A stretch of 41,103 nucleotides of DNA from Sphaerisporangium cinnabarinum (GTDB lineage: Bacteria; Actinomycetota; Actinomycetes; Actinomycetales; Cellulomonadaceae): contig QAPD01000030.1 in the NCBI GenBank assembly GCA_003052455.1, positions 1 through 41,103 of the forward strand, given 5' to 3'. Every line of letters starts with the position of its first letter. Positions within the stretch are counted from its first letter, which is position 1. The notes under the pieces are model-generated. The model worked only from the letters and a program-made list of their open reading frames with translations, was not told where the DNA came from and ran no database searches. Below are positions 23,251-41,103 of this stretch, one piece after another. The position numbers were made by a program, and so were the translations under genes.

Positions 23251-23345
23251 GTGCCGTACCACCGGCGTACCGGGCACCGACGCGGTGCCGCCAGCACGTC
23301 GCTTGTGACGAAGTACCCGTGACGAACCACGAGTGAGGAACCACC

Positions 23346-39118: not shown

Positions 39119-40180
39119 ATGGACGTGGACATGAGCGCGCTGCGCCTGCTGGAGCGCGAGCGGGACATCAGCCTCGACGTGCTCGTCGCGGCGATCGAGC
39201 AGGCCCTGCTCTCGGCGTACCACCGCACCCCCGACGCGTACACCCGCGCGCGCGTCGAGCTCGACCGCAAGTCGGGCCACGTGACGGTGTGGGCGCGCGA
39301 GGAGCTGCCCGCTCCCGAGACCGACGACGAGGACGCTCCGCGCGGCCCCGCCGAGTACGGTCCCGAGTTCGACCACACGCCCGCCGACTTCGGCCGCATC
39401 GCGACCTCGACCGCACGCCAGGTCATCGTCCAGCGCCTGCGCGACGCGGAGGACGACCAGATCCTCGGCACGTTCCGCGGCAAGGAGGGCGAGGTCCTCG
39501 CGGGCGTCATCCAGCAGGGCCGCGACCCGCGCGTCGTGCTCGTGGACGTGGGCGGCACGGAGGCCGTGCTCCCGCCGCACGAGCAGGTGCCCACGGAGGA
39601 GTACGTGCACGGCGAGCGTCTGCGCGCCTACGTGCTCGAGGTCGCCCGGGGAATGAAGGGCGCGCAGATCACGTTGAGCCGCACGCACCCCAACCTGGTC
39701 CGCAAGCTCTTCGAGCTCGAGGTCCCCGAGGTCGCCGACGGCTCCGTGGAGATCACGGCCATCGCGCGCGAGGCGGGGCACCGCACCAAGGTCGCCGTCC
39801 GCTCGCGCGTCCCGGGGCTCGGCGCGAAGGGCGCGTGCATCGGGCCCATGGGCTCGCGCGTGCGCGCGGTCATGGCGGAGCTCCACGGCGAGAAGATCGA
39901 CATCGTGGACCACAGCGACGACCCGGCCCAGTTCGTGGCCAACGCGCTGTCCCCGGCGCGTGTGTCGTCGGTCACGGTGGTCGACGAGGTGGCACGCGCC
40001 GCGCGCGTCGTCGTCCCGGACTTCCAGCTCTCCCTCGCGATCGGCAAGGAGGGGCAGAACGCCCGCCTGGCCGCGAAGCTCACGGGGTGGCGCATCGACA
40101 TCCGCTCGGACGAGGGCGGAGCCGCGGCCGAGGGGCCCGACGGTGCCGCTCCCGCAGGTCCCCGCGCTGCCGACCGGTAG
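39119..40180 (+). CDS. nusA: Transcription termination/antitermination factor NusA
   Basis: NusA binds RNA polymerase and nascent RNA to modulate pausing, termination and rRNA antitermination. The 353-residue protein has the N-terminal RNAP-binding domain ([32 protein letters not shown]). The S1 domain includes [32 protein letters not shown], and two KH domains follow ([50 protein letters not shown]). The C-terminal acidic repeats of E. coli NusA are absent, normal for actinobacteria. GAGGAG (39105-39110) lies inside the rimP end, 8 nt before ATG 39119. Confidence 0.97.
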
Positions 40181-40221
40181 CCGCGGGGCGTGGGACGGTC
40201 ACGGATGACGGACCGGCGCGG

Positions 40222-40227
40222 TAGACT
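40222..40227 (+). promoter_or_regulatory. Candidate -10 box TAGACT before ylxR
   Basis: TAGACT predicts a start near 40234, ~28 nt before the ylxR ATG at 40262. It could add a second promoter for ylxR-infB independent of rimP-nusA. Confidence 0.4.
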
Positions 40228-40261
40228 GTCATCGACCGGGCCGCGAGCCCGCACCTCGACC

Positions 40262-40585
40262 ATGCCCTCGGACTCCACGACCCGCCCCGTTCCCACGGGA
40301 TCGGGTCCGGTCCGCACGTGCGTCGGGTGCAGGCAGCGCGACCTGCGGTCAGCTCTTCTCCGTCTGGTCCTCGACCGGTCCGGCGTGGGCACCGACGAGC
40401 CACGGCTCGTGGTGGACGCCGGGCGGTCGCTGCCGGGCCGCGGTGCGTGGCTCCACGCGTCGGCCCGGTGCCTCGAGACGGCGGAACGCCGGCGGGCCGT
40501 CCCGCGGGCCCTGCGTGTCGCCGGGCCCCTCGACCTCGCCGCGGTCCGCGCCGCGATCGAGGCCCGTCCGGGAGAGCACCTCTGA
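40262..40585 (+). CDS. ylxR: YlxR (DUF448) RNA-binding protein
   Basis: This 107-residue protein has the YlxR signature PVRTCVGCRQRDLRSALLRLVLDRSG, then LVVDAGRSLPGRGAWLHASARCLETAERRRAVPRALRV. It is a small basic protein always found between nusA and infB; in B. subtilis it has been linked to nucleoid- and RNase P-related functions. ATG 40262 is preferred over ATG 40190: homologues start shortly before the PVRTC motif and a TAGACT promoter box lies between the two ATGs. A 9-bp terminator-like hairpin and a chain of tiny ORFs follow before infB. Confidence 0.92.
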   Translation: MPSDSTTRPVPTGSGPVRTCVGCRQRDLRSALLRLVLDRSGVGTDEPRLVVDAGRSLPGRGAWLHASARCLETAERRRAVPRALRVAGPLDLAAVRAAIEARPGEHL

Positions 40586-40596
40586 GCCATGCGTCA

Positions 40597-40618
40597 CGGC
40601 CCCGTCCGTACGGGGCCG
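40597..40618 (+). terminator. Stem-loop after ylxR
   Basis: Perfect 9-bp stem (40597-40605 with 40610-40618) with CCGT loop, 11 nt after the ylxR stop. It is the first element of the ylxR-infB leader region. Confidence 0.6.
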
Positions 40619-40657
40619 CCAGCACGACACGTCGACAAGGAAGCGGGTTAGAAGCCG

Positions 40658-40672
40658 ATGGGCACCCGATGA
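40658..40672 (+). CDS. Leader mini-ORF 1 (MGTR)
   Basis: ATG GGC ACC CGA TGA: a four-codon ORF. AAGGAAG (40637-40643) lies 14 nt upstream and AGAAG (40650-40654) 3 nt upstream. Its stop overlaps the start of mini-ORF 2 as ATGA. Translation is inferred, not shown. Confidence 0.5.
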   Translation: MGTR

Positions 40673-40686
40673 GTACCCAGCGATGA
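40669..40686 (+). CDS. Leader mini-ORF 2 (MSTQR)
   Basis: ATG AGT ACC CAG CGA TGA, coupled by ATGA at both ends to mini-ORFs 1 and 3. Its sequence is a near-repeat of mini-ORF 3. Confidence 0.5.
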   Translation: MSTQR

Positions 40687-40700
40687 GCACCCAGCACTAA
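40683..40700 (+). CDS. Leader mini-ORF 3 (MSTQH)
   Basis: ATG AGC ACC CAG CAC TAA. It ends the chain with TAA, 8 nt before the hairpin that holds the infB ribosome-binding site. A ribosome terminating here would reach the base of that hairpin. Confidence 0.5.
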   Translation: MSTQH

Positions 40701-40708
40701 CGACGGTC

Positions 40709-40738
40709 CTCCCTGTCCGGGGCGGGCCGAGACAGGAG
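40709..40738 (+). promoter_or_regulatory. Hairpin sequestering the infB Shine-Dalgarno
   Basis: CCTGTC (40712-40717) pairs with GACAGG (40731-40736). After a 1-nt bulge at 40711, CT (40709-40710) pairs with AG (40737-40738). Three inner pairs (40718-40720 with 40727-40729) are possible. The AGGAG ribosome-binding site (40734-40738) is entirely on the 3' strand. Confidence 0.55.
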
Positions 40739-40742
40739 AGTT

Positions 40743-41103
40743 GTGGCAAAGGTCCGCGTCTACGAGCTCGCGAAGGAGCTCGGGGTGGAAAGCAAGACCA
40801 TCATGACCAAGCTGACGGAGCTCGGTGAGTTCGTCCGCTCGGCATCCTCGACCATCGAGCCACCGGTGGTCCGCAAGCTGCGCGACGCCTTCCCCGCCGG
40901 GGGCGGCGGCGCGAGCAAGCCCGCGGCACCCGCCGCGCGTCCGGCCGCACCGAAGCCGGCCCCGAAGCCGGAGGTCAAGGCCGAGCCGGCCGCGCCGGCC
41001 CCGCAGGCCCCGCAGGCCGCGGCCCCCGCCGAGCCGTCCGCACCGGCCCCGAAGGCTCCGGCACCCGCCGCGCCCGCGGCCCCGGCCCCGAAGGCCCCGG
41101 CAC
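40743..41103 (+). CDS. infB: Translation initiation factor IF-2, N-terminal part (3' end outside window)
   Basis: IF-2 is the GTPase that recruits fMet-tRNA to the 30S. The visible 120 residues contain the IF2_N domain [50 protein letters not shown], followed by the long Pro/Ala/Lys repeat region ([20 protein letters not shown]) typical of actinobacterial IF-2. The GTP-binding domain is beyond the window. The start is GTG 40743, with AGGAG (40734-40738) only 4 nt upstream, a short spacing. That ribosome-binding site is paired in a leader hairpin and preceded by three coupled mini-ORFs, so translation is likely regulated. Confidence 0.96.

Follow-up and report, generated by a model that had tools for sequence, protein, structure and literature searches.

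Why is infB, the gene for initiation factor IF2, preceded here by three minimal open reading frames that overlap one another by their stop and start codons, and what could such a leader do for the expression of the gene? In the window, i.e., the whole stretch of 41,103 nucleotides analysed here, the sequence-only reading had placed three ATGA-overlapping mini-ORFs at 40658-40700, and these coordinates proved exact.

The infB leader in the window

The features on which the argument depends are the following.

40639-40648, + strand: Shine-Dalgarno (SD)-like element GGAAGCGGGT before mini-ORF 1 (sequence)
40658-40672, + strand: mini-ORF 1, MGTR-stop, ATG GGC ACC CGA TGA (sequence)
40669-40686, + strand: mini-ORF 2, MSTQR-stop, ATG AGT ACC CAG CGA TGA, ATGA overlap with mini-ORF 1 (sequence)
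40683-40700, + strand: mini-ORF 3, MSTQH-stop, ATG AGC ACC CAG CAC TAA, ATGA overlap with mini-ORF 2 (sequence)
40704-40709, + strand: helix A (CGGTCC), with its partner in B (GGGCCG, 40724-40729) (complementarity)
40708-40738, + strand: P2, predicted SD-sequestering hairpin, 40708-40717 with 40731-40738 (fold)
40722-40729, + strand: segment B (GCGGGCCG), possible partner of A and of C (complementarity)
40734-40738, + strand: infB Shine-Dalgarno AGGAG (sequence)
40743-41103, + strand: infB (IF2), GTG start at 40743, running past the end of the window (IF2_N domain, E 6.5e-15)
40751-40757, + strand: segment C (GGTCCGC, infB codons 3-5), complementary to B at 40722-40728 with one G-U pair (complementarity)

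Mini-ORF 3 stops 3 nt 5' of helix A. Upstream of the chain lie rimP, nusA and ylxR, the last with its stop codon at 40583-40585, and the RimP, NusA, YlxR and IF2_N domains were confirmed in the window by Pfam. Among the matches listed, the start of the window IF2 is 96% identical to Sanguibacter, 91% to Actinotalea and 89% to a Cellulomonas record; L011, from the same genus as the window, has an incomplete sequence and gave an IF-2 match over the available part, below the whole-protein cut-off. No consensus match to a promoter or terminator was found between ylxR and the chain. A perfect 9-bp hairpin without a T run (CGGCCCCGT/ACGGGGCCG) is present in this interval at 40597-40618 and is missing from L014, another species of the genus. 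The window contains no tRNA genes. No known RNA family was found in 40100-40900: the sole match of an Rfam scan was an irrelevant microRNA with 16.8 bits and E 4.1, far below its gathering score, which is 100.

The only other chain of at least three ORFs in the window, at 23285 on the + strand (VPPARRL/VTKYP/VTNHE, GTG starts), is probably due to chance. The doubled CGATGRSYRC motif occurs in the 4.39-Mb genome solely in the infB leader, as two overlapping matches, which rules out for this genome that the chain is a widespread genomic motif. A stricter motif gave 31 matches in 21 of 60 genomes of the class, 20 of them at infB by coordinates and one, in G220, presumably also there; the remaining 10 lie elsewhere or, in G196, in a genome whose infB place is not listed, and 9 of these 10 have an ATG spacing of 12 or 15, like in-frame coding repeats.

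Conservation and frame coupling of the mini-ORF chain

The chain is conserved well beyond close strains, as the sequence-only reading had proposed to check. Loci were gathered by searches with the IF2 N-terminus in the genus, order, class and phylum, supplemented with about one per genus, and without a paralogue (L016), a locus with no usable start (L121) and 14 loci from outside the class, the 219 loci left 203 from the class Actinomycetes. A chain, defined as at least three ORFs of 3-8 codons joined by NTGA or TGATG/TAATG links within 250 nt 5' of infB, precedes the gene in 188/203 of these loci, which are neither independent (15 belong to the genus of the window) nor random, being best-scoring loci plus roughly one per genus. 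The same rule was satisfied by 32/10150 dinucleotide shuffles of the leaders and by none of 2286 control tiles of 250 nt from the same loci (0/564 sense, 0/451 antisense, 0/1271 unoriented). Outside the class, the chain was found in 0/34 loci (14 plus 20, drawn from 124 outside-class genomes with an infB match). Under a relaxed rule (2-12 codons, chain end 25-75 nt before infB), at least three ORFs were found in 139/152 genera and 51/54 families. In a separate set of named loci (best 80 of 520), largely relatives of Streptomyces and Arthrobacter with a possible overlap in species with the first set, 78/80 carry the chain.

Under the 3-8-codon rule, 15/203 class loci have fewer than three ORFs. 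L080, L119, L126 and the Arthrobacter-type family f6 were missed as an effect of the rule, their last ORF being longer than 8 codons; the chain looks reduced or lost in L070 and L267, with one short ORF each, and in L161, L136 and L139, which makes these five loci useful natural controls. In the f6-type leaders, which L263, L266 and L279 match, the last ORF, of 21-26 codons, is reached from a chain such as METR/MSSQR/MSAQR and stops just before the A stem in 5/6 genera examined (L132, one of these, was read by eye); in L144, its stop lies 53 nt from infB and precedes another stem. By eye, the long last ORF of L132, L256, L260, L264 and L284 is reached over a 2-nt gap between stop and ATG. A last ORF of 21-26 codons is also seen in L138, L140, L141, L145, L167 and L263, with residues recurring in some (MTTLLRSAMG...RSKK), and judging from its sequence the f6-type ORF is perhaps a real small peptide.

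The start codon of infB is GTG in 202/203 class loci, TTG in the remaining one, and GTG in all 80 named loci (best 80 of 520); a rare start of the infC type, i.e., other than ATG, GTG or TTG, was thus seen in none of the 203. Several outside-class loci have infB starts other than GTG, in contrast to the near-fixed GTG of the class. The contig of L251, labelled as a Spirochaetaceae MAG, has a typical actinomycete infB leader (MSAR/MSLHR/MSASMK) and is probably mis-binned. Additional matches to the N-terminal domain of IF2, weaker than the first, were found in L016, G210, G193, G265 and G285 in open frames of 244-1382 aa; some of these are perhaps RNase E, since the NCBIfam model of mycobacterial RNase E also matches the IF2 N-terminus weakly.

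Overlapping stops and starts require that successive RTGA tetramers be spaced by 2 mod 3, and consecutive tetramers 6-22 nt apart follow this spacing in 258/275 cases across 152 genera (binomial p 4e-100, relatedness ignored). The spacings are mainly 11 and 14 nt, 8, 17 and 20 being also found, so that the length changes seen preserve the frame. The 337 links in 143 genus representatives comprise 298 ATGA, 12 TGATG, 15 GTGA, 7 TTGA and 5 TAATG; they are NTGA, TGATG or TAATG by the definition of the search, of which the 2-mod-3 spacing of RTGA is independent. The stops and starts overlap or adjoin, as in the termination-reinitiation class, and the variety of GTGA, TTGA, TGATG and TAATG among the links indicates that the start/stop function is kept and not a fixed motif. 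In family f22, GTG serves as the middle start (MSTP/VKSR/MTMRHS in L081), and family f44, with small genomes and AT-rich leaders, has other peptides (MKLR/MSSLEL/MRSYN in L214) and in L187 two ORFs only (MSTTRL/MSSSI), while L017, L018 and L021 have four units. Judged by the conservation of frame and start codons, the mini-ORFs appear to be under coding-type selection.

Their peptides are less constant. Codons 2 and 3 of the Ser-Thr/Ala type recur in many but not all families, the identity of the peptide drifts along the chain and is least kept in the last ORF, and column entropies show this last ORF as variable, with no conserved stalling peptide or codons. The sequence-only reading had also suggested that particular charged tRNAs might be sensed, which we regard as unlikely because peptide identities are not kept, least of all in the last ORF. 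The last sense codon is CGA in 222/337 linked ORFs, though any NNA would permit the ATGA overlap.

The distribution of SD-like sites is uneven along the leader. Among 139 genus representatives, an anti-SD duplex of -5 kcal or lower precedes the first of the last three ORFs in 70%, ORF 2 in 6%, ORF 3 in 2% and infB in 99%, versus 31% of control 15-mers. The rarity of such sites before ORFs 2 and 3 suggests that these are readable mainly by termination-reinitiation, and this sequence pattern is consistent with a dependence of mini-ORFs 2 and 3 on the translation of the mini-ORF upstream.

Possible pairing between the leader and early infB codons

The chain ends close to a structured element. The last stop lies 31-66 nt 5' of infB in 143 representatives, with a gap of mostly 42-48 nt, and a stem of at least 5 bp begins 0-5 nt 3' of it in 120/143 genera, none being present in 6/143. 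A ribosome at the last stop would, by its known reach, cover the base of helix A, and the proposal that a ribosome ending there covers the base of a hairpin thus agrees with the position of the stem within 5 nt of the stop.

The structure tests covered 143/152 genera, nine having been dropped where the chain or spacer rule failed, and pairings were counted from at least 6 bp with G-U allowed. A:B occurs in 124/143 genera versus 303/1430 shuffles, B:C in 122/143 versus 615/1430, and A:B together with B:C or P2, each of at least 6 bp, in 118/143 versus 179/1430. Both A:B and B:C are strong in 113/143 genera, and in 103 of these they share at least 3 nt of B; in the window, 5 nt of B are common to both. 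A pairing of B with the early infB codons would loop out the SD and the GTG start.

Own partners exceeded swapped ones in the swap test for B:C, both over genera (20.35 versus 17.06, z 11.6) and over 52 families (20.77 versus 17.17, z 6.9). The controls gave z values for genera and families of -0.2 and 0.0 with codons 9-14, -1.1 and 1.0 with complemented B, and 6.9 and 4.6 with reversed B, the last indicating that part of the B:C signal is due to composition or near-palindromy. For A:B, z was 9.2 over genera and 5.3 over families, with 1.8 and 1.9 in the reversed control. Covariation was scored on all 43 representatives with a spacer of 42-43 nt, and the scores were reached by 2/500 shuffles for A:B, 3/500 for B:C and 79/500 for P2; pairs changed on both sides were not above shuffles for A:B and B:C in these 43 sequences (248/500 and 264/500). 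A first alignment, of 23 sequences chosen by hand from the 43, had left out P2-rich rows, and the P2 score on it was reached by 221/500 shuffles.

In several lineages, B tracks changed infB codons: GCCCTGAGC can pair with GCTCAGGGT in L109, ACCCGGATC with GATTCGGGT in L124 and CGCGGGCC with GGCCCGCG in f36, and B follows an altered C also in L173/L174/L176 and in L116. B:C is present and a strong A:B absent in L109 and L124. The codon for Val4 of infB is GTC or GTT in 101/101 KVRV representatives, while Val6 is GTA or GTG in 34/101 (Fisher 4e-12); an early-codon bias may explain part of this, since the Leu codons near C are mostly CTC.

The hairpin P2, in which the sequence-only reading saw the SD-sequestering element, fared unevenly. 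It is possible in the window on folding, where a pairing of all of AGGAG can be drawn at about 40708-40738 and one fold gives it (MFE -24.5, z -0.43), and it is strong in sequence and folds of some lineages, e.g., L147 and L152. When a longer part of infB is included, another structure becomes the MFE of the window, and the centroid has no base pairs. Across the class, loop:SD pairing of at least 6 bp is found in 39/143 genera versus 103/1430 shuffles, with weak covariation, and swapped partners did as well in 0/5000 trials over genera and 308/5000 over families; P2 was rejected as a universal element and is lineage-limited. On these comparisons, A:B and B:C are more widely kept than P2.

Folding alone gave no clear toggle between A:B and B:C/P2 in the 143 genera or the window. 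The window folded without A pairs B with infB codons 8-10 and not with C, the ribosome-binding site still being enclosed. Masking the first 10 nt raised the mean of max(B:C,P2) from 0.88 to 0.98, versus 0.86 to 0.85 in shuffles, and the rise exceeded 0.3 in 17/143 genera versus 10% of shuffles. The openness of the SD did not fall with masking (0.50 to 0.56; shuffles 0.56 to 0.63), and a thermodynamic toggle by 10-nt masking was not clearly shown. When ensemble energies were compared between masking of A and masking of C, the A-masked state was the favoured one in 121/143 genera; masking C also strips other coding structure, and we held this comparison unfair, left it unused and do not count it as a result in favour of a switch.

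An attenuator model, its rivals and known systems

We hypothesize, with a probability of roughly 0.43, that the infB leader is a class-wide translational attenuator in which serial re-initiation on the mini-ORFs, a switch between A, B and C, and negative feedback by IF2 are combined. A ribosome would start at the first mini-ORF, which bears the SD-like site, and the later mini-ORFs without SD would be reached solely by termination and re-initiation at the ATGA overlaps. With no ribosome at the last stop, A would pair with B, perhaps favoured by being transcribed before C, B would be barred from infB and the gene would be open. A ribosome at the last stop would mask A, B would then pair with the early infB codons and the ribosome-binding site would be closed; in some lineages, the loop would pair with the SD (P2) instead of B:C, to the same end. 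Through serial re-initiations, the occupancy of the last mini-ORF would come to depend steeply on IF2, or on its level relative to IF3 and recycling, since re-initiation seems more dependent on IF2 than de novo initiation. The gene would be closed when IF2 is high and open when it is low. Conservation, frame coupling, the SD pattern, the position of the last stop and the complementarity of A:B and B:C are observed; from this anatomy we infer that the mini-ORFs are translated, that the switch operates in vivo and in the direction given, and that IF2 is its signal, and the idea that the leader may sense IF2 or recycling, already voiced in the sequence-only reading, is carried on in the same conditional sense.

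Excerpts of a study in E. coli (PMC2268962) report that, with a mutant initiator tRNA, re-initiation rose about 2.5-fold when IF2 was overproduced, and that overproduction of IF3 lowered it; its authors raise the possibility that IF2 is needed more for re-initiation than for de novo initiation. A 2025 review, as far as excerpted, cautions that overexpression of initiation factors may be pleiotropic and treats termination-reinitiation as unsettled (PMC12548453).

The same anatomy could instead serve a general sensor of translation stress, in which antibiotics, uncharged tRNA or slow recycling would hold up ribosomes on the chain and these would flip A, B and C. We consider this unlikely: leader ORFs that sense stalling are common in bacteria, to judge from the excerpted text of PMC12121999, and the CGA preference at the end of linked ORFs would suit it, but codon and peptide identity are poorly kept in the last ORF, where position matters most, and the need for several coupled ORFs is left without explanation. 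The chain might also relay ribosomes to infB and raise its expression, the hairpin shortening the distance from the last stop to the SD, much of which it spans in the common 42-48-nt gap; the excerpted review does name short ORFs as possible deliverers of ribosomes to a downstream gene (PMC12548453). This appears less likely still, as infB has an SD of its own in 99% of the representatives, the distance of the last stop precludes overlap coupling, a single ORF would suffice and B:C would be pointless.

An effect on transcription, by ribosomes on the chain that shield the leader from Rho or alter pausing so that transcription of infB follows translation of the leader, is improbable in our judgement. 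The ylxR-infB leader is compact enough in sequence to be covered by ribosomes, but no intrinsic-terminator-like site was found in 40180-40780 by a consensus scan, which does not reach Rho sites, and the codons of infB that take part in the covariation lie around the ribosome-binding site. Could IF2, with IF1, eject short peptidyl-tRNAs on the mini-ORFs, so that drop-off and not re-initiation would be at work? Work by Karimi et al. from 1998, cited in PMC10192219, reportedly, judging by its title, concerns such ejection, and mini-ORFs of four to six codons fit the size range; under the A/B/C logic, however, IF2 would then open infB in a positive loop unless the polarity were reversed, and we give this very little credence. 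It is least believable that the repeated GATGAGYAC is a protein-binding motif of RNA or DNA with the ORFs being incidental, for the strong repetition of the sequence in many families is countered by its replacement with GTGA, TTGA or TGATG, by divergent versions, by a spacing that keeps the frame and by the distribution of SD-like sites. Compared with an SD hairpin alone, the A/B/C arrangement would be the better picture of the leader, and its use as a counter of IF2 would be the best reading of it.

We know of no established feedback mechanism for the synthesis of IF2. If the attenuator model is true, the leader, kept in genera of the Streptomyces, Cellulomonas and Arthrobacter types, would provide one for a whole large class of bacteria, and also a natural minimal assay of termination-reinitiation, for 30S versus 70S and for the roles of IF2, IF3 and RRF. 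It would be the first bacterial example of multi-uORF counting, as far as we found. No report of mini-ORFs before infB was found in an open-licence library of papers, and the element may already be on record elsewhere, in subscription papers or supplements.

In leader-ORF attenuators of the erm, tna and TopAI types, the position of a ribosome on a short leader ORF picks one of two exclusive structures, as proposed here. They rely on stalling at specific codons of the leader ORF, whereas in the infB leader several minimal ORFs are coupled and a conserved stall peptide is absent. The mammalian ATF4 leader with its multiple uORFs follows the same logic as that of yeast GCN4. Both resemble the infB leader in their serial short uORFs, where re-initiation, set by the availability of the initiator-tRNA complex, decides on the main ORF (for GCN4, excerpts of PMC11550727). 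We would tentatively, and with somewhat less confidence than the attenuator itself, regard the leader as a bacterial counterpart of the GCN4 logic, in which each ATGA junction is one IF2-dependent trial and the product of the trials drives a switch into the infB codons throughout the class. The eukaryotic systems differ in that ribosomes scan between separate uORFs. In the infB leader, neighbouring ORFs share 4 nt, the output would be an RNA switch, and the gene under control codes for the factor itself. The infC genes of E. coli (ATT start) and Streptomyces (ATC start) are similar in that an initiation factor acts back on its mRNA by way of the property of initiation that it governs (excerpts of PMC5472188), but they use one rare start codon and no upstream ORF chain. 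ATGA/TGATG gene pairs and the RTGA-coupled small ORFs of mycobacteria share the geometry of the overlap (excerpts of PMC6728339 and PMC4633059); those link an ORF to a gene, whereas the infB mini-ORFs are coupled among themselves and stop before infB is reached.
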